NCBI GenBank assembly: GCA_030533265.1
Contig: JAUNJM010000010.1
Span: 1 to 43,796 of the forward strand
Length of the DNA stretch: 43,796 bases
Source of the DNA: Ruminococcus sp.
GTDB taxonomy: Bacteria > Bacillota > Clostridia > Oscillospirales > Ruminococcaceae
Direction of reading: 5' to 3'
This document shows positions 2,270 to 23,322 of this stretch, in pieces; within the stretch, counting starts at the first letter, position 1; every line of letters starts with the position of its first letter. Below the pieces are notes generated by a model. That model did no database searches. It was not told the origin of the DNA and saw only the letters and a list, made by a program, of their open reading frames with translations. The translations under genes were made by a program, and so were the position numbers.

Positions 2270-4747
2270 CTAAGTAACAGGAACTAACGGATTGTTACCA
2301 GTCTGTCGTATTCTTGCGTTGTTGAGTCGTACCATTTCGGTATGCAGTTTTCTGCCGTCGATGTCTATCTGTATCTGAGCCGTCAAGTTGCCGTTGCCGA
2401 TTTCACCATTCCTGCTCATTGCATTAGTTACAGCCTGCTCGATAGTGCTCAGTGGTGACACAACCTCAGTTTCACGCTTGTTGTCACCGAGTATCGCAAG
2501 GAATTCACCATAGTTCGCAGGAACGACTGTGCCGGTGGCAAATGCCGGAAATGAATCCTTTAAAACCGCAGCAACAGCTGGGTCAAATATACTTGATGTA
2601 TCAATAGTATTTTTATTTTGTGATGCATCAATATTGTTTACATCTTCTCCAACTTTGTTTTTAACTTGAGAATACAAATCGGCAATATTACGTAGCTTAG
2701 CAGCGAAAGCATTTATCTCATCTTGATGAAATACAGCCCAAAGTGCTGCATATAAGCCTATCAAAACAGTTATAGCAAGAGCCAACATATTTATACCACC
2801 TGTTGATACTGTAGTTACTGCTGCGAACACAGCTTGTATTGCAGTTACTACCCATAATACAGTTTTATATACTAAGAACGCAGTACAAATAGCACCGATT
2901 GCTGTTACTACCTTTTGCATAGCAGGAGACAAATCCTCAAACCACTTTTGAATTTTATCAGCGATTGGTGTAACCAAACCCCAAAAAGTTTGAAATGCTG
3001 ATTTAAAAGCCTCTTTAACTACTTTGAAGAAATTAGTTGCAATTCCCCACCAGTCTATGTTGCACAAGAACACCCCAATTTTCTGACCAATTTTAAACCA
3101 TTCAATTGTATGTAAAAACTCAAGTACAGTGCTGAATAGACCATTTATAGATTCTGTAATAGTTTTTCCAAGCTGTTCCCAATCTATAGAATCAAACCAA
3201 GAATTAACGGCTGTTGCTATTGAATTACCAAATCCAGACCAATCAAATGTTGTCACAAATCCGTAAATAGTACCTATCAGTGCATTAATTTTTTGAGCAA
3301 AATATCCACCAATCATTGACCAGTCAACCGAATCTATAATACCATTTAGCAATCTGGCTAAACTCATACCAAAAGAAACAAAGTCAAACGTTGTAATGAA
3401 CGTATACAGTGCAACCAGCACTGTATTAAAGCCTTCCCCTATTTCTTTTCCAAGCAGTTCCCAGTTTATGTTTCGCACAAGTCCATTCAAGAAATCTGTT
3501 ACTTTTTGCACCTGCTCTTTGACAAAAGTCTGAATTGCTTGCCAGTTGATTCTGCCAAAAAGTGAGTTTATCTTTTCTGCTAATAATGCTCCAATACCTT
3601 CCCAATTTCCGGACGTGAAAAGTTTCTTGATTCGTTCCAACGATTCTGATACTTTCTTTTCGGCACTACTTGTATCCACATCAATCTTTGCTGTAAGCAC
3701 TCCTTGACCTGCAAGCAGTCCACCGGTAACACCGGTACTTACCTTAGCATCATCGTTATCTTCAAGCTTAGTAATCTTATCAAAGCCTGCAAGCTGTTTC
3801 TCGTTAGCTTTTTTGGCTTCTTCTGCACTCTCAGCCATATCGCTGTAATTATCAGCAATTTCGGCAGTGCTGTCAACGATACCGGCAGTGGTATCACTTG
3901 TTCCTATGTCAATACCGAACACCTCAGACAGTGCTTTGACAGCCCTCTGAGCATAAGAGATAAGGCTTGAAAATGCCTTGTTGAGCACCTTGACAGCAGG
4001 GAGCAGTACCCCCATAAGAGCCTGACCGACCGTGCCTGAGAACTCCTTCCACTGCTCGGAAAGTATTCTCGTCTGGTTAGCCCAGCTATCCTGTGTTTTA
4101 GCAAAGTCGCCGTGAGCAAGGCTTGTCTGAGCCATGACATAGTTGTATCTGAGCTGTACCTTTTCAGCCTGAGTCATAGCCGAGAGCGACTTTGTAATGC
4201 CCTGTGAAAGAGCGAATGCTTCGAGGTTTGCTTCTGTCATTACGACACCGAACTTTTTGAGCGTTTCCGTTTCGCCCGTGAAAATCGACTTCAAAGCCGT
4301 TGATGAAACGTCCTGCTCGACGTTGTAGAACGATGCCATATCAGCCGAAAGCCCTGTCAGAGCAACAGCCATATCGCTTGCACTGTCCTGAGCTATGCCC
4401 ATTCCTGACGCCATCGCCATAAACGTTGAACCCGTCTGCTTTGCTGCCAATCTTGAAATTCCGAACTGCGTTATTGATGTTTTCGCAAACTGCTCCATTT
4501 TGTCCGACATTGACCCGAAAGCTGTGTCAACAACGTTTTGAACTTCCTGCAGGTCAGACGCTGTGCTTATAGCCTCTTTGCCGAAGTCGATCATTTTTTT
4601 GACGGAAAACGCAGCAGCGGCAGCGACTGCCACCTTACCAAGCATGGATTTCAAACTTCCAAGTCCGCTTGAAAGCTGTTTAGTGCCTGCATTAAAGCCT
4701 TTGGTATCTATTTTTGTGTCAAAATTAAGCCGTCCGTCTACAGCCAT
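2270..4747 (-). CDS. Phage tail tape measure protein, 825 aa
   Basis: This is the longest phage gene and lies between the Gp15 chaperone gene and the Dit-like gene, as expected for a tape measure. Residues about 30-260 match the TP901-type core, with STASDLQEVQNVVDTAFGSM, GMGIAQDSASDMAVALTGLS and FTGETETLKKFGVVM. Residues 380-570 form tandem W-containing repeats with Trp or Phe at roughly 382, 402, 429, 456, 476, 503, 523, 550 and 566. Hydrophobic segments at about 615-660 may insert into the host membrane during DNA entry. If about 1.5 angstrom per residue applies, the tail would be near 120 nm. The repeat part is visibly more AT-rich than the N-terminal part. Confidence 0.92.
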   Translation of the reverse strand: MAVDGRLNFDTKIDTKGFNAGTKQLSSGLGSLKSMLGKVAVAAAAAFSVKKMIDFGKEAISTASDLQEVQNVVDTAFGSMSDKMEQFAKTSITQFGISRLAAKQTGSTFMAMASGMGIAQDSASDMAVALTGLSADMASFYNVEQDVSSTALKSIFTGETETLKKFGVVMTEANLEAFALSQGITKSLSAMTQAEKVQLRYNYVMAQTSLAHGDFAKTQDSWANQTRILSEQWKEFSGTVGQALMGVLLPAVKVLNKAFSSLISYAQRAVKALSEVFGIDIGTSDTTAGIVDSTAEIADNYSDMAESAEEAKKANEKQLAGFDKITKLEDNDDAKVSTGVTGGLLAGQGVLTAKIDVDTSSAEKKVSESLERIKKLFTSGNWEGIGALLAEKINSLFGRINWQAIQTFVKEQVQKVTDFLNGLVRNINWELLGKEIGEGFNTVLVALYTFITTFDFVSFGMSLARLLNGIIDSVDWSMIGGYFAQKINALIGTIYGFVTTFDWSGFGNSIATAVNSWFDSIDWEQLGKTITESINGLFSTVLEFLHTIEWFKIGQKIGVFLCNIDWWGIATNFFKVVKEAFKSAFQTFWGLVTPIADKIQKWFEDLSPAMQKVVTAIGAICTAFLVYKTVLWVVTAIQAVFAAVTTVSTGGINMLALAITVLIGLYAALWAVFHQDEINAFAAKLRNIADLYSQVKNKVGEDVNNIDASQNKNTIDTSSIFDPAVAAVLKDSFPAFATGTVVPANYGEFLAILGDNKRETEVVSPLSTIEQAVTNAMSRNGEIGNGNLTAQIQIDIDGRKLHTEMVRLNNARIRQTGNNPLVPVT

Positions 4748-7876: not shown

Positions 7877-8065
7877 CTACACCTCACTTTCGGTATCTCC
7901 TGCAGCAATAATGGCATCAATAATGTCAGATTTCTTAGATGCAGAACCAATATCAATGCCATTATATTTTGCGAACTCTTTGAGCTGAGTCACCGTCATA
8001 TCCTCAATGCAAATGTCGGGCGTATATGTGTCTTCGGCAAAGTTAAGTCCTACTACCTTTCCCAT
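7877..8065 (-). CDS. Small HeH/LEM or Rho-N-like phage protein, 62 aa
   Basis: The gene starts at ATG 8065 after AGGAGG, between the capsid and adaptor genes. Residues 20-58 (MTVTQLKEFAKYNGIDIG followed by SKKSDIIDAIIAAG) match the helix-extended-helix fold shared by HeH, LEM and Rho N-terminal domains. Such short proteins often occur at this place in siphophage head operons, where they may decorate the capsid or bind nucleic acid. The fold is recognisable, but the function in the particle is not known. Confidence 0.75.
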   Translation of the reverse strand: MGKVVGLNFAEDTYTPDICIEDMTVTQLKEFAKYNGIDIGSASKKSDIIDAIIAAGDTESEV

Positions 8066-8076
8066 TGCAGTACCTC

Positions 8077-8952
8077 CTATGCCTTGTGGTGCAGATAGAT
8101 GCCTGCTGCCTTATTTTCGTACACATCAGCAAGACCATAAGCACGGAAAAAGAACATCCAGCTATCATCTGTCTGATTATCTTCGGGAGAAATGACCTTG
8201 TTGACTGTGTGCTTTGGATACTGAATAACAGCAGATTTCTGAATCACCATAAAGTTAATATCCTTACCGGCTGTTGCCTTAGCAAATCCACCTGCTGTTT
8301 CTCCCTCTGTAGTACCGTCATTCATTTTTATTGCAGTGTAAAAACGGCTCTGAGGTACTTTAACGATCTTCGCAAAACTGTCAAGCACAGCTCTTGATTT
8401 TGTTGTGTCAACATTGTTTACAAGATTGAACAAGGTCGGTGTGATGTAAAGGATTCTGTTTTCAGGTGACACCTCATCTTCATCCATTTTGTTCTGTGCT
8501 GCTATCAAAGCAGTAAGAATGTCATTGCCGGTGGACAATGTTGCACCTGCCGAAACCTTTGATATTCCTTCTGTTCCTGCATATGTAGCAAACCTGAATG
8601 CATCAAGCTCAGGGGTTGTCTTAGTTCTGATGAATTCTGAGGAGAGCTTGCCGAAAGCAAGACCTGCTGTTTCTTCATTGTCCATGTTGTCAACGCTGAA
8701 CTTTCTGCCACGGTCATAGTTGAACTTGACTGTTTCGTTTGTCAAGGTCACGTCACCTTTCACATAGCCACTGTTTCTGCTGTAGTCAGCAAGACCGTCC
8801 ATTGAGATCTTAGGAATAATTATTTCATTTGCATTTTTACCTGCCTGTACAAGAGCCGAGTCCCCATCGAGATCAGCAGTGCATGAAGACTGCTTATACA
8901 CCTCGTCCAACAGATCAATAAACTTCTGAAATTTTGTGATTGCATTTGCCAT
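8077..8952 (-). CDS. Major capsid protein (HK97-fold type), 291 aa
   Basis: I choose ATG 8952, which lies eight bases after GGAGGT; the frame can be extended two codons to a TTG. The protein begins MANAITKFQKFIDLLDEVYK and contains the motifs of A118/SPP1-like coat proteins, including NANEIIIPKISMDGLADYSR, RGRKFSVDNMDNEET and the C-terminal KHTVNKVISPEDN. It follows the GP20 scaffold gene, as expected for a coat protein that assembles on a separate scaffold. It carries no N-terminal delta domain or protease. About 400 copies would be needed per head, which fits its very strong ribosome site. Confidence 0.9.
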   Translation of the reverse strand: MANAITKFQKFIDLLDEVYKQSSCTADLDGDSALVQAGKNANEIIIPKISMDGLADYSRNSGYVKGDVTLTNETVKFNYDRGRKFSVDNMDNEETAGLAFGKLSSEFIRTKTTPELDAFRFATYAGTEGISKVSAGATLSTGNDILTALIAAQNKMDEDEVSPENRILYITPTLFNLVNNVDTTKSRAVLDSFAKIVKVPQSRFYTAIKMNDGTTEGETAGGFAKATAGKDINFMVIQKSAVIQYPKHTVNKVISPEDNQTDDSWMFFFRAYGLADVYENKAAGIYLHHKA

Positions 8953-9544: not shown

Positions 9545-9568
9545 AAAACGCCCTAAAAAGAGCGTTTT
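9545..9568 (-). terminator. Intrinsic terminator inside the late operon
   Basis: AAAACGC and GCGTTTT form a seven-base-pair stem around a ten-base loop. On the minus strand it is followed by TTTTTATT. It lies after the 52-aa gene and before the scaffold gene, so transcripts to scaffold, capsid and tail must pass it or start anew. No good promoter is visible between it and the scaffold start. Confidence 0.72.
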
Positions 9569-9742: not shown

Positions 9743-9768
9743 GTTATCACTCCTCTTAAGGCAAAATT

Positions 9769-9793
9769 AAAAGCCCCCTAAAAGGGAGCTTTT
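9769..9793 (-). terminator. Intrinsic terminator after the immunity-like gene
   Basis: On the minus strand AAAAGC-CCC and GGG-GCTTTT arms form a stem that closes on a short T-rich loop and is followed by TTTTAATTTT. It begins one base after the stop codon of the 83-aa gene. With the terminator at 9,545 it encloses the 52-aa gene. Both stand in the middle of the late operon. Confidence 0.72.
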
Positions 9794-9794
9794 A

Positions 9795-13070: not shown

Positions 13071-14442
13071 CGTTTACACCTCCCACAGCAACGATTGCTT
13101 TGATAAATTTACTAAACGAATATTCCAACGCATCGGCAGTATCTATATCACAAGTGCCATCATCAAGACGTACATCCTCAGTTTCGTGTCTTGGATCCCA
13201 TATCTGTTCCGACAAGCTGCCGATCACATTTTTGCACTGTCGCAAAACGCTGAACCTGCCTTGTGCCATAAGCAGTGCAAGAGTAGATATTCTGTCATTA
13301 ACAGGGGCTTTGTAGCAGTCCATGATGTTAATAAACAGCTTTGCTCTTCGACAAGCGTTTCTAAGTCCGTTTATCAATGTCTGAGCTTCGTTATCTGCCC
13401 ACGCATACTTTATTAAAAGTGGATTATAACGGTTATACAACCGTCTTATAAATGATATAAAACGCTTGTATATCACTACAGGATCTACTTCGCCTTTAGT
13501 TCCTTCGATTTTTTCATCATCAAGCACCACAAGATTTTTAAATCCCTGTACAAATCCCACTGCAACAAAGGTAGTTTTTGATTTGTTTCCGCCAAAATCT
13601 ATACCGACCTGTATACTTGTGATTTCAGATTCGTTAATGCTGTCAATGATATATTTATCGGTGTTATTTGCGAAATCCTGAAATATAATTCCTTCAGCTC
13701 GTATTCTCAGCCCTAAAATATCACGCTTATACCAAATGGACGTTGGATCGTATTGCGATTTAACCTCCGCCTTACGCTCATCGGTGATGTTGATATTGTC
13801 ATCAATAGTAAAATGCTCATAGTTATAGCCTCCGAGAAACTTTCCGGAGGCTGTGTCCTGTTGGTACTTATCAATATATTCCGTATATATCCACGATTTT
13901 GGATTGTCAGGGTTTAAGTCCCACCAGATCTTACGCTTAACGGCAGCGATAGATCTGTTGAATGCTTCCTGAACAAAAGACTTGTGATGCAGATTGATCT
14001 CTGTCGCTATCCACATACCGTACGAATTACCTCGAATGGATTTGTAACTACTTGCAAGCATTGCACCTGAGAAAATGACGATACGTTCCTTGTAACCTGT
14101 ATCCGGACCTCTTATAATAAGTGCATCATTGCCTTTGTACTTTCCCCATCGGCACTGACCTCGGAAATAATGTTCTATTCCGAAACCGTTGCAATCGCCA
14201 AGAATTATCTTTGCATTTCCAAGCGTGGAAGCTGATGCAAGGTGGATCTTATCCTTGGTACTTTTAAGCTCATGACAAAAAGCCAACACATTGTCAACTG
14301 TTTTACCGGCACGAACTGCACCCTCAGCAACATTTATCATACAGTCAGCAGATCTTTTTATGTAATTTTTGTGTTTGTCACCGAAATTGTAAGGTATAGT
14401 TTTTTTGCGTTTTAACAGCTTAGTTTTTCTGTTACTCGCCAT
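13060..14442 (-). CDS. Terminase large subunit, 460 aa
   Basis: I use ATG 14442, six bases after GAAGGTG, rather than the upstream GTG 14451. The ATPase domain carries the Walker A variant GAVRAGKT at residues 41-48, and the coupling region TSSYK-like segment MLASSYKSIRGNSYGMW near 130. The nuclease domain starts with the acidic strand GIDFGGNK at 280-287, with further conserved acidic residues in AWADNEAQ and near the C terminus. The enzyme cuts and pumps phage DNA into the head. The sequence is of the PBSX/SPP1 terminase type. Mu-like phages package by headful, starting at the end that is visible here. Confidence 0.93.
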   Translation of the reverse strand: MASNRKTKLLKRKKTIPYNFGDKHKNYIKRSADCMINVAEGAVRAGKTVDNVLAFCHELKSTKDKIHLASASTLGNAKIILGDCNGFGIEHYFRGQCRWGKYKGNDALIIRGPDTGYKERIVIFSGAMLASSYKSIRGNSYGMWIATEINLHHKSFVQEAFNRSIAAVKRKIWWDLNPDNPKSWIYTEYIDKYQQDTASGKFLGGYNYEHFTIDDNINITDERKAEVKSQYDPTSIWYKRDILGLRIRAEGIIFQDFANNTDKYIIDSINESEITSIQVGIDFGGNKSKTTFVAVGFVQGFKNLVVLDDEKIEGTKGEVDPVVIYKRFISFIRRLYNRYNPLLIKYAWADNEAQTLINGLRNACRRAKLFINIMDCYKAPVNDRISTLALLMAQGRFSVLRQCKNVIGSLSEQIWDPRHETEDVRLDDGTCDIDTADALEYSFSKFIKAIVAVGGVNGEY

Positions 14443-14893
14443 AAACATCACCTTCTATCTCGGATGTATCTTCCAGCTCAGGATCAGCTTTAGGATTTGG
14501 TGACCAGTTTTCCTTATCTTTATTCTGCAAATAGCTAAGTGCTGCAGAAGCATTTGGAGCTATCTGCTTCTTGGTACGTCTATATGATCTTCGTCCGTTG
14601 GATGCGATCCGTATTTCCTCGTCTACATATTCTCCACCTAATGCAGCAGAAAGCAAAGCACGTTCGACTTCTGCAGTAACCAACTCAGGATTATCGTTAA
14701 GAAATTCATGCAGCTCCTCATGCTGTCTTTTAAAATCGGCAGCAAGCTGTTTGCGTTTTTCAGGATCTTTCTCATTTAAAAAAGCCTCGGACAATTGTTC
14801 GAGACTCATCACATCACTTTTAACCTTAACATCATCTATGCTGTCGATCACATCTGCAAGCAGATGCACAGCCTGTTTTCTTTTTTGGTTCAT
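14432..14893 (-). CDS. Terminase small subunit-like protein, 153 aa
   Basis: The start is ATG 14893 after AGGGGTGAA, and the end overlaps the large subunit gene by 11 bases. The C-terminal part has a pattern frequent in small terminases: ERALLSAALGGEYVDEEIR, a Lys/Arg-rich segment (RRSYRRTKKQIAPNASAAL) and a closing helix ending NKDKENW. The N-terminal half is a charged helical region (DPEKRKQLAADFKRQHEELH). It probably recognises the packaging start. A second candidate for this role, the gp27-like protein, lies 700 bases upstream, so the division of labour is unclear. Confidence 0.72.
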   Translation of the reverse strand: MNQKRKQAVHLLADVIDSIDDVKVKSDVMSLEQLSEAFLNEKDPEKRKQLAADFKRQHEELHEFLNDNPELVTAEVERALLSAALGGEYVDEEIRIASNGRRSYRRTKKQIAPNASAALSYLQNKDKENWSPNPKADPELEDTSEIEGDVYGE

Positions 14894-15139
14894 GTACTTT
14901 CACCCCTTTGCCGAAAAACGAATTAAAAGCCGTTTTCAGCGACTTTGTTTTAATTTTAGATAAGTTTTACCTGTAATCGTATTAAAACGATTTAAACGGC
15001 ATTTAAATGGCTGTCAAACGGCATTTGCGTGGGTACGCTCCGCCATTCAGCACATTTTCTTTCAAATGCCCGTTTTTATCATGTATCATATACAGTTACG
15101 ACCTGAGGACGTATCAACTCAGGTGTTTGCTGTATAATC
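14894..15139 (-). promoter_or_regulatory. Structured leader between the LoaP-like gene and the terminase/structural genes
   Basis: This 246-base stretch has no plausible gene. On the minus strand it begins with a hairpin with seven-base arms ACCTGAG and CTCAGGT (15,101-15,124). A larger element follows, with arms GGCATTTG and CAAATGCC (15,020-15,070) enclosing a small GCGT/ACGC hairpin. Two copies of AAACGGCATTT (14,994 and 15,016) lie 22 bases apart. None of the stems has a good T-run, so they are not simple terminators. Because LoaP-type proteins act through an RNA hairpin in the leader of their target operon, this is the likely target site; that is inference. Confidence 0.5.
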
Positions 15140-15613
15140 TTATCTTGTGTCTATTGTAACGCTGAAACTGTGGTCTTCACCATTGATCTGCGTATGTATC
15201 CACCCTCGCATTATGCGTGGATTGTAGTCAGTAATCAAGTGTTCCTGTCCGACCAATGTACCGTCTGTGATCATCAATCTGCCGTTTTCTAAAATACCTT
15301 TTGAAATGTCTATATTCTGCATTTCAAATATCCATTTCAGGTGATTGGCTTCACTTTGCTTTATAGCTTCAGGTGGGCTTCCTAAGAATCTTAGGACTCC
15401 GTCAGTCTTTTTAACAGTGTAGTATATCTCGACCGTAAGATCAGTGTCAATAAACACATACGATGGATATATGACTCTTACGACCTGTTTCCAACGTCCC
15501 TTGTGACGTTCAAGGATCGTCCTTGTCGGTGCATACGCTGATATATTCATATTATTCAGTTTGGTACAAACCTCTGTTTCCGATTGGGGTTTAACGTATA
15601 TGACATAAATCAT
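15140..15613 (-). CDS. LoaP/RfaH-like NusG paralog, predicted processive antiterminator of late genes
   Basis: The protein is 157 residues long. Residues 1-85 form an NGN domain: the first strand reads MIYVIYVKPQSETEVCTKL, followed by APTRTILERHKGRW and the family signature VIYPSYVFID near 48-57. Residues 100-157 contain a KOW-like segment, with LMITDGTLVGQEHLI and then basic residues. The overall form matches LoaP of Firmicutes rather than housekeeping NusG, which lies in a ribosomal gene cluster. LoaP-type proteins load on RNA polymerase at an RNA hairpin and let it pass terminators. The gene overlaps the gp27-like gene by four bases and stands directly before the structural gene block. Confidence 0.85.
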   Translation of the reverse strand: MIYVIYVKPQSETEVCTKLNNMNISAYAPTRTILERHKGRWKQVVRVIYPSYVFIDTDLTVEIYYTVKKTDGVLRFLGSPPEAIKQSEANHLKWIFEMQNIDISKGILENGRLMITDGTLVGQEHLITDYNPRIMRGWIHTQINGEDHSFSVTIDTR

Positions 15614-16161
15614 TGATCTTCGCTCCGTTTCTCGTTCAGGAACATTGCAACTTCTTTGTACAGATCTGGACGTTCTCTTGCCATAGCCTCGAACACCATA
15701 GTTTTAACCTGCTCAAATCCTGCTGAAAGAATATCCTCATTCTTAACATCAAGGTTCTTTTTGTATGATGCAGCCTTAACAAGTGCAGTAGCCTGTTTTA
15801 AAAGTGCTTCTGGATCAAGCTGTCGCCATCGCTCCTCAGGAGTATTCTGTATCGACTCAAGGACGTTGTGTGACAAAAGTCTTATGATGCCTTCGCTGGT
15901 ATCAAGTGCAGGATACTTATTGATCTCCTCCATGATGACACGAAAGTTTTCTTGTGCCATCCTTAGTGTTTCGACTGATTCGTTAAGGCTCGAAGCATAT
16001 CGCCATACGGATGTTATGGATATATCCTTATCCGTCTGTGCCTTGATGTAATCGGCAATTTCCTGATATGTGAAATCCGACTTCATCATTTCTTCAACGG
16101 TAGCCTTTAGCTCAGGAGGAAGCTTGTCAATTATACTATGCTTTCTGCGTTTTCGTGGCAT
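15610..16161 (-). CDS. Mu gp27-like protein (DUF3486 type; possible terminase small subunit), 183 aa
   Basis: The start is ATG 16161 after GGAGGG. The N-terminal 60 residues contain a helix-turn-helix with the typical DUF3486 sequence LPPELKATVEEMMKSDFTYQ and ISITSVWRYASSL. The rest is helical, as in Mu gp27, which acts with gp28 in packaging. It follows gp25- and gp26-like genes in Mu order. The same HTH sequence pattern occurs at the end of the BRO-N protein encoded at 24,465-25,127, which is unusual. The DNA-binding role is well supported; the site it binds is not known. Confidence 0.82.
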   Translation of the reverse strand: MPRKRRKHSIIDKLPPELKATVEEMMKSDFTYQEIADYIKAQTDKDISITSVWRYASSLNESVETLRMAQENFRVIMEEINKYPALDTSEGIIRLLSHNVLESIQNTPEERWRQLDPEALLKQATALVKAASYKKNLDVKNEDILSAGFEQVKTMVFEAMARERPDLYKEVAMFLNEKRSEDQ

Positions 16162-16501: not shown

Positions 16502-16738
16502 TTATTTTCCTCCCTTTATCTCCAGAAGAATATCCATGATCCTGTCGAGCTTTCTATCTGTTTTACCCTGCTCACGAAAAAAATCTTCCTTTGTTATATA
16601 GTCCTCTTTGATTTTTGATATATCAGATTCACACTTATCTATCCTGTCCATTGTACGCTTAAGAAAATATGATATAACTCCCAAGCCTCCTGTAAGCACT
16701 ATATTGATGATCGCCGTAATAATGTCTGTATTGCTCAT
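16502..16738 (-). CDS. Mu gp25-like small membrane protein (DUF2730/holin-like), 78 aa
   Basis: I choose ATG 16738, eight bases after GGAG; a GTG six bases upstream is too close to that site. Residues 6-28 (IITAIINIVLTGGLGVISYF) form one membrane segment, followed by a charged coiled coil (residues 30-75). This layout is seen in Mu gp25-like proteins and in small holin-like or spanin-like phage proteins. Since it heads the late block, next to gp26 and gp27 homologues, the gp25 reading is preferred. A role in lysis cannot be excluded. Confidence 0.68.
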   Translation of the reverse strand: MSNTDIITAIINIVLTGGLGVISYFLKRTMDRIDKCESDISKIKEDYITKEDFFREQGKTDRKLDRIMDILLEIKGGK

Positions 16739-16752
16739 GTCCACACCTCCAT

Positions 16753-16789
16753 AAAAAAATAGTACCGTAATCTCTATAATTACGATACT
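16753..16789 (-). terminator. Intrinsic terminator before the late block
   Basis: On the minus strand AGTA-CGTAAT and ATTACG-TACT form an eleven-base stem with one mismatch, followed by A and seven T. It would stop transcripts coming from the early and middle genes just before the gp25-like gene. Its 5' arm overlaps a candidate late/middle promoter. Confidence 0.7.
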
Positions 16790-16820
16790 ATATTTATTGC
16801 GATTAGTACAATGATGTACT
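16780..16820 (-). promoter_or_regulatory. Candidate Mor-activated promoter with AGTACA-ATGA-TGTACT dyad
   Basis: A perfect dyad, AGTACA and TGTACT separated by four bases (16,805-16,820), lies 12 bases upstream of a minus-strand TATAGT (16,792-16,787). No -35 box is present. Mor/C-type activators bind dyads upstream of promoters that lack a -35 box, and a Mor-family gene lies 400 bases upstream. A start near 16,780 would lie within the 5' arm of the terminator and so escape it. The link with Mor is inference. Confidence 0.4.
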
Positions 16821-16902: not shown

Positions 16903-17160
16903 TTATTTGTCTACAACTAAATTTCCGTTATTATCGTATCTTGGTGCCATTGAATTTCCGGTAGTATTGCCAGTACACCAATAATGCACACCATCAGGAC
17001 TAATCCATTCAACAATATAAACGGTTTCCATTCCCATATCAATTAGATATACTTCGTATTCAGTATCATCAAATATATAGCTATGATTATCTTCTGATAA
17101 TTCGCATCCACACAATATCATCGTCATCAATGCTGAAATAGCTAAAATTATTTTTTTCAC
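16903..17160 (-). CDS. Small phage-encoded lipoprotein, 85 aa
   Basis: The start is GTG 17160 after GGGGGAA. Residues 1-19 are a lipoprotein signal peptide with Lys-Lys at the start, a hydrophobic stretch and the lipobox LCGC, so Cys19 would be lipidated and the mature protein of about 67 residues held on the outer face of the membrane. The mature part is acidic and beta-rich with many aromatic residues and ends DNNGNLVVDK. It is AT-rich and sits between the Mor gene and the late block, a place for accessory genes. Surface lipoproteins in prophages often exclude superinfecting phages; that role is a suggestion. Confidence 0.72.
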   Translation of the reverse strand: MKKIILAISALMTMILCGCELSEDNHSYIFDDTEYEVYLIDMGMETVYIVEWISPDGVHYWCTGNTTGNSMAPRYDNNGNLVVDK

Positions 17161-17229: not shown

Positions 17230-17589
17230 TTAAATCTCATCAAATGTTAACTGTCCTTCAATTGGAGCGTTTTTCTTTTCCTGCAAAATGTCAGATGTTA
17301 TCATTCGTATAGTTCGCTCGGACAGGTTGTATTTTAATGCAAGGAACTTGTAGTTGTAGCCATTAAAATCCGATCGGATCTTTTCGTCCCTTGAAGATCT
17401 CAGTACCGATTCCAGCTTAGGGATATACAACGACTGTCCACTGTATCGTGTAACTATCTTGCCGTATGCCTCCATGCCTATACAGTCGCATAGTTCTTGC
17501 TGATCAGGGGACAAGTCCTCATAGATTATATCAAACTCCGGCAATTGTATCACCCTGCCTTTTGACTCTGCGTTCTGCCGTGTTAACAT
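17230..17589 (-). CDS. mor: Mor-family middle/late transcription activator
   Basis: Residues 20-119 match the Mor/C activator family: a dimerisation region with QELCDCIGMEAYGKIVTRY, the family motif SGQSLYIPKLESVLRSSRDE, and a helix-turn-helix reading NGYNYKFLALKYNLSERTIR. In Mu, Mor turns on the middle promoter after replication begins. The start is uncertain. ATG 17589 overlaps gemA by 59 bases and lacks a good ribosome site, while GTG 17553 or TTG 17544, the latter six bases after AGGGTG, would give 107 or 104 residues without losing the domain. It lies directly after gemA, as mor does in Mu. Confidence 0.87.
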   Translation of the reverse strand: MLTRQNAESKGRVIQLPEFDIIYEDLSPDQQELCDCIGMEAYGKIVTRYSGQSLYIPKLESVLRSSRDEKIRSDFNGYNYKFLALKYNLSERTIRMITSDILQEKKNAPIEGQLTFDEI

Positions 17590-23238: not shown

Positions 23239-23273
23239 GATTTTCACTTCCTTTCAGGTCTGCCATCATCAGT

Positions 23274-23314
23274 GTCGGGAGACCGTCCCCGACAGACCGA
23301 GCATAACGCTCGGT
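23274..23314 (-). repeat. Tandem GC-rich hairpins upstream of the transposase segment
   Basis: Two inverted repeats lie back to back. The first has arms GTCGGG and CCCGAC (23,274-23,293). The second has arms ACCGAGC and GCTCGGT around a five-base loop (23,296-23,314). They are far more GC-rich than the surroundings and are not followed by T-runs on either strand. They could be an mRNA processing or stability element, or an attenuator between the regulator and the transposase. Confidence 0.55.
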
Positions 23315-23322
23315 TTCGGCAT

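Follow-up and report, generated by a model that had tools for sequence, protein, structure and literature searches.

In Bacillus velezensis, LoaP binds a hairpin of UNCG type in the leader that it targets and depends on this hairpin in vivo as well as in vitro; it counteracts NusA and carries transcription past further operon terminators, and its dfn leader contains a pause between hairpin and terminator (PMC12691694). Processive antitermination via an RNA heading a long operon with internal terminators is also known for conAn of pLS20, EAR and put (PMC8955417). Most RAGATH RNAs were called unexplained in 2024, and the RAGATH-18 RNA found with IS607 TnpB guides the nuclease (PMC11061315). Here, we analyzed a 43,796-nucleotide (nt) stretch of Ruminococcus sp. 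DNA (contig JAUNJM010000010.1; C24 of a 1.41-Mb draft genome), hereafter the window, in which a LoaP-like gene of a Mu-like transposable phage lies directly upstream of a leader matching the orphan Rfam RNA family RAGATH-28 (RF03052). Judging from sequence, the function of this RNA is probably LoaP-dependent antitermination.

Like B. velezensis LoaP with its dfn and mln leaders, the phage locus combines a protein composed of an NGN domain and a beta C-terminal domain with a UNCG-type hairpin at the head of a long operon (the window and dfn hairpins being likened by loop type), with intrinsic terminators located both in the leader and within the operon, and with TTTAA repeats at the place of the dfn pause site, between hairpin and terminator. 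Unlike the system of PMC12691694, it involves a phage late operon and not an antibiotic operon, the loaP gene immediately precedes the RNA and shares its orientation, a second half of the RNA is conserved, and the protein falls in a separate clade and below the LoaP cut-off. An earlier note on this DNA had suggested that a LoaP-type protein antiterminates the phage late operon, a prediction that our comparisons support. Beyond that note, we found that the leader matches RAGATH-28, that the element has two halves, of which the hairpin is one, and that the other half is common to many host LoaP leaders.

The LoaP-like protein and its leader RNA

All window features given below lie on the minus strand. 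The LoaP-like open reading frame (ORF; 15140..15613, 157 amino acids) was assigned by profiles and predicted fold, and its ATG start codon overlaps the end of a gp27-like gene. It scored 60.6 bits against Pfam NusG (cut-off 22.2), and among the NCBIfam models listed LoaP was best with 108.9 bits, followed by UpxY (52.5), RfaH (TIGR01955; 47, cut-off 144.5) and housekeeping NusG (TIGR00922; 39.6, cut-off 135.7). A separate housekeeping NusG of the same genome is encoded on contig C59. In the AlphaFold2 model (mean predicted local distance difference test score 94.9), an NGN domain is followed by a C-terminal domain predicted as beta strands. In a VIA-align comparison the nearest solved fold is LoaP, and both domains align with the solved RNA-bound member. 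The protein is therefore nearest to LoaP by sequence and fold, not to housekeeping NusG, which answers the profile comparison of LoaP, RfaH and NusG that the earlier note had called for.

In the tree, the phage proteins form a clade apart from the host LoaPs (34/34 rows, support 100/100). The arginine of LoaP described as contacting RNA is R41 (PMC12691694). By numbering, we infer that R36 of the window protein corresponds to it; this residue lies within an aligned E-R pair, where arginine is present in 62 of 67 phage and 17 of 31 host LoaPs (lysine in another 10) and in at most 1 of 27 NusG proteins. Residue I143 of the same study could not be mapped onto the window protein. A search of viral contigs for close relatives of the protein found nothing, and relatives were taken from whole genomes and phage records. 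Of 11 phage-record matches, three (H1-H3) served as phage LoaPs; by eye, H5 and H7 resemble housekeeping nusG. A related prophage is carried by Ruminococcus sp. Marseille-P6503 (L155 and L157).

The leader itself (14894-15139, 246 nt) folds at -64.9 kcal/mol (z -3.27), and only 1 of 200 shuffles folded as well, so the description of this gap as structured stands. Its ACCUGAG/CUCAGGU hairpin appears in the minimum-free-energy and centroid structures alike. Rfam RAGATH-28 matches positions 15037-15123 across the whole model (43.9 bits, E 1.9e-6), and our own model R1 delimits a RAGATH-28-type two-part element at 15025..15131 (62.6 bits). One part is the hairpin P1 (15101..15124; ACCUGAG-[UU]-GA-UACG-UC-CUCAGGU), a bulged stem with a UNCG loop that sequence, fold, covariation and loop letters mark as the proposed LoaP site. 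The other is a constant 3' module made up of CAUA, the hairpin P3, GGCGAAGC and NUACC; from sequence and alignment, the window's form of the GGCGAAGC core is GGCGGAGC at 15037..15044.

We collected 94 elements, 66 of them unique, and aligned 57 after thinning near-copies and omitting L058 and L060, which have long inserts. The resulting P1 consensus is X-GG-[UU]-GA-UNCG-UC-CC-X', with changes on both sides at 8 of 9 pairs; the hairpin thus covaries across relatives, a check that the earlier note had asked for. The covariation score of the whole structure, 0.430, exceeded that of shuffles (0.191, standard deviation 0.013) and that of the slid structure (0.174 at most). P3 showed both-side changes at 6/6 pairs, yet pairing in only 69.9% of cells, and covariation for pairing of the GG-CAUA strand with the NUACC strand was not convincing. 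In 47 rows the inner P1 pairs are GA/UC, and two rows (L035 and L064) have GG/CC; the remaining 8 show UU, CU or GU on the 3' side, which by eye is compatible with one extra base after the loop. Loop letters were UUCG in 40 rows, UACG in 8, UGCG in 7 and UCCG in 2; UNCG was required by the pattern that gathered 32 of the 57 rows, and it was present in 25/25 of those gathered otherwise. Where the Rfam drawing of RAGATH-28 has a 10-nt loop, covariation thus favours two inner pairs and a UNCG loop.

Association of the RNA with loaP genes in phages and hosts

We scanned 396 genomes from the family to which the window belongs, including the window's own, with RF03052 and obtained 26 matches in 24 genomes. 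At 26/26 of these, a LoaP-like ORF of the same orientation precedes the element and either overlaps it or ends no more than about 260 nt away. At least two matches to the NCBIfam LoaP model (NF033641) were found in 25 of the 396 genomes, of which 23 contain RF03052, and one of the other 371 genomes has it, namely G325, in which a contig end truncates loaP. The two genomes of the 25 that lack RF03052, G042 and G226, have LoaP-like genes beside polysaccharide genes (by eye); both carry the GGCGAAGC core near these genes, and R1 matched weakly in G042 (E 0.027) and not at all in G226. Among 398 genomes drawn from across the phylum, 3 were matched by RF03052, the window's own included, and the element is therefore concentrated near the window's family. 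These association counts are not independent, because many loci are near-copies of one phage.

A pattern scan gave LoaP upstream at 39 of 51 matches in viral contigs and 26 of 28 in genomes. The pattern matches without LoaP (12/51 and 2/28) were rejected as chance, with a P1 stem of one pair in 13 of the 14 and two in L105; this verdict was reached from stem, tail and context jointly after the data had been seen, and six LoaP-positive loci likewise have only two unbroken P1 pairs.

A gp27 homologue precedes LoaP at 67 of 77 loci. For six of the remaining ten the available DNA starts inside loaP or no more than about 160 nt from it, and four (L176, L178, L199 and L200) are different, with the LoaP-RNA pair in the absence of Mu-like genes. 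L176 has the order N6-methylase, LoaP, RAGATH-28-type RNA, terminase large subunit and SPP1-type portal, and L178 starts alike. In L199 and L200, which represent another mobile element, LoaP follows replication-type genes. It is succeeded in L199 by two RAGATH-28-type RNAs (7980-8083 and 8146-8250) and then by SAF, T2SSE and T2SSF, a Tad-like pilus operon, and in L200 by one such RNA. Because the pair also occurs at these four loci, it is not a mere consequence of Mu-phage gene order. L176 and L178 come from a phage of a Peptostreptococcaceae metagenome-assembled genome, and no Mu-like genes were present in the stretch examined.

The 3' module extends to host genes. Our host set comprised 31 distinct loaP loci, 29 of them above the LoaP cut-off, with two same-genome pairs (L209/L221 and L217/L222). 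R1, which was trained on phage elements only and whose E-values are rough, matched 13 of the 31 at E <=0.01, upstream of loaP in 10 and downstream in 3 (L217, L222 and L219, the last more than 1 kb away). L186 matched just downstream of loaP at E 0.011. Housekeeping nusG loci gave 0/27, the best E being 3.3. Of 33 host loci, 16 have the exact GGCGAAGC core no farther than 300 nt from loaP (upstream in 13 and downstream in 3), versus none of 29 nusG loci; in antisense, the core was found at 1 of the 33. The part that phage and host leaders share is the 3' module; by eye, the host 5' hairpin differs in many leaders, its sequence often being similar to AAAUCGUCGCNUUGCCGCGUUU, and the hairpin of L186 combines a UUCG loop with a CA bulge. 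Rfam RAGATH-28 at E <=1 matched none of the 18 host loci scanned, so the kinship of host and phage RNAs rests on R1 and the shared core. Hairpins resembling that of dfn beside host loaP genes were isolated candidates only.

In ten host loci (L206-L211, L213, L214, L221 and L189), a leader RNA with the shared 3' module precedes loaP, possibly reflecting autoregulation of the gene. By eye, L206, L210 and L220 show a promoter-like stretch ahead of the RNA, and the RNA is separated from loaP by a hairpin that resembles a terminator. L216 carries a RAGATH-18 RNA (79 bits, 2622-2694, minus strand) near its host loaP gene.

Late operon, terminators and repeats of the phage

In phage Mu, late control passes from Mor to the C activator. 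The minus-strand order in the window is MuA-type, MuB-type, Mor-family and gp27-like genes, the LoaP-like ORF, the 246-nt gap and the late genes, which profile searches of the window proteins identified as head, packaging and tail genes; it thus holds MuA and MuB homologues, Mor and gp27 in the order by which we recognize a Mu-like transposable phage. The Mor-family activator at 17230..17589 (58.6 bits) bears out the Mor-type gene of the earlier note. By profile, the gp27-like gene (Phage_Mu_Gp27) occupies 15610..16161, its 3' end overlapping the start of the LoaP-like ORF, and the first late gene, terminase-small-subunit-like (PHROG 309), occupies 14432..14893. In a search of 9 genomes, a single Mor-family match lies near each of the 10 LoaP-RNA loci, and the window's assembly contains a single Mor/C-family match, the one near its LoaP-RNA locus. 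The phage thus resembles Mu as a transposable phage with a Mor-family activator upstream, and differs from it in having one Mor/C-family match and a LoaP-like gene before the late operon.

Sense terminators were found by scanning along this operon. In the leader, a weak terminator-like hairpin (14926..14946) precedes the first late gene; the leader terminator of L038 is stronger. Across the aligned leaders, a strict terminator follows the RNA within 230 nt in 22 of 57, against 1.8 expected from shuffles, and control stretches had one in 4/53 and 2/54. Inside the operon, the scan placed intrinsic terminators at 9768..9794 and 9546..9567, which are those noted earlier at 9,769 and 9,545, and a third at 7532-7504. 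In a survey of the late side of eight phages (the window, L033, L034 and L038-L042), sense terminators were present in 8/8, and two of them lie between the minor-head gene and the scaffold or major-head gene in seven, with one in L041; the pair that the earlier note had located thus recurs at its place in related phages.

TTTAA-type repeats (14982..15010) separate the RNA from the leader terminator. At least two TTTAA occur within 110 nt after the element in 41 of 57 leaders, with 9.9 expected from shuffles; the spacings cluster near 10, 11, 21 and 31 bp (most commonly 21, 11 and 10), a phasing of about 10.5 bp in the relatives. The repeats are perhaps a DNA-binding or pause array; that they act as a pause or loading site is speculation.

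Two further features were noticed. An 85-amino-acid ORF at 16903-17160, between Mor and the gp27 gene set, has a lipoprotein-like start by eye and no PHROGs match. Upstream of the MuA-type gene, the window carries a type II hammerhead ribozyme (23254-23321, 57.7 bits); at least one copy was found in each of the seven related phage loci scanned, and L042 has six.

Proposed mechanism and alternatives

The phage has the parts of the B. velezensis LoaP system in the same order and one Mor match per locus, and we therefore read its late control as Mor first and LoaP-driven antitermination next. We consider it likely that a LoaP-like processive antiterminator is loaded at a RAGATH-28-type RNA right after its own stop codon, allowing read-through of the leader and internal terminators. 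Mor-dependent transcription would first produce a message for gp27 and LoaP that mostly halts in the leader. LoaP would then bind the bulged UNCG hairpin P1 as it exits RNA polymerase, with the constant 3' module helping it to join the elongation complex. The modified complex, in which phage LoaP may antagonize NusA, would pass the leader terminator and subsequently the terminators within the approximately 14-kb morphogenesis operon, so that the late switch would consist of Mor followed by RNA-directed antitermination.

Several observations weigh against this explanation. The earlier assignment of a LoaP-type NusG paralog held for the best profile and the best solved fold, but the 108.9 bits of the window protein lie below the NF033641 cut-off of 125, a value that no match exceeded in the 396 family genomes. 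The RNA copy of the window falls 1.4 bits short of the Rfam gathering score of 45.3, which was passed by five of the seven related phage loci scanned, L034 and L040 not among them. A strict terminator is missing from 35 of the 57 leaders, and that of the window is weak and outside the 22. In the eight phages, late-operon terminators are not sense-only (21 sense versus 16 antisense); strand bias alone is thus no argument, and their recurring place is. Among the host loci, R1 at E <=0.01 is absent from 18/31, including L183, whose protein by eye is close to that of 8f5g, for which an RNA complex is solved; at least 17 show nothing convincing. Most of the host hairpins are not UNCG. Finally, a terminator-like palindrome with a T run (16759-16791, and by eye at the same place in L033, L038 and L039) lies right before the gene set that holds loaP and starts with 16502-16744, and polymerase would have to pass it before loaP is transcribed.

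The sharing of the 3' module between phage and host leaders with different 5' hairpins would also fit a module that acts directly on polymerase. The RNA might then antiterminate alone, as put of HK022 and EAR do, or be the main antiterminator and use LoaP only to aid processivity, in the way that conAn2 uses ConAn1, and P1 would not be recognized by LoaP. RNA-only and RNA-plus-protein systems are both described (PMC8955417), and the phage locus is like conAn in having a protein part and an RNA part, although its protein is a NusG paralog. We nevertheless regard this as unlikely, since P1 covaries and keeps the loop type bound by Bacillus LoaP, LoaP is near every RF03052 match, and Rfam scans of the window, related phage and host loci named no other antitermination RNA family, those of conAn, EAR and put included.

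The number and helical spacing of the TTTAA repeats would suit DNA sites for an activator, and the leader could thus chiefly be a late promoter or operator, with the RNA fold secondary and LoaP acting elsewhere. Compensatory changes that preserve RNA pairs argue for a somewhat lower probability still, as does a consensus scan (sigma-70 type only) that lists no minus-strand promoter-like site in 14894-15139; the internal terminators, moreover, would still require read-through. Least probable of all, in our estimation, is simple co-inheritance, in which an RNA serving RNA processing, packaging or translation of the first late gene adjoins loaP through kept gene order. The frequent gp27 neighbourhood and the many near-copies of one phage would be expected under it, against which stand the pairs found without Mu-like genes and the 3' module adjoining host loaP genes.

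Extending LoaP-driven antitermination beyond this phage, we somewhat favour the broader proposal that a general LoaP-dependent antitermination RNA, built from an exchangeable specificity hairpin and a constant 3' module acting on RNA polymerase or NusA, exists and has RAGATH-28 as its phage branch. Such RNAs would serve bacterial polysaccharide operons, the Tad-like pilus operon of a different mobile element and, in a large Mu-like gut phage lineage, the late operons. In this lineage, RNA-directed antitermination would have taken the place of Mu's C, and loaP would immediately precede the site at which its product is loaded. The phage element is the same as RAGATH-28 by sequence and structure, and the partner protein is proposed here. 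As with RAGATH-18, a RAGATH orphan would be explained via its adjoining gene, in this case an antiterminator and not a nuclease (PMC11061315). The components involved are small, and a leader-reporter fusion with inducible LoaP in B. subtilis is an existing type of assay (PMC12691694).

In the literature searched, we found neither the term RAGATH-28 nor a stated function for it, and the original RNA and LoaP descriptions may already note the link; no phage-borne LoaP was found in that literature, covered mostly at the level of listings or passages. New here are the co-directional placement of loaP immediately before the RNA, the conserved second RNA half, and the single Mor-family match per locus where Mu has Mor and C. 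With these findings, the orphan RNA RAGATH-28 gains a testable job, the reach of LoaP would extend past the biosynthetic operons of hosts to the late genes of phages, and a conserved RNA module is indicated beyond the small hairpin studied so far. They may also bear on how late genes are switched on without a C-type activator in Mu-like phages of Clostridia.
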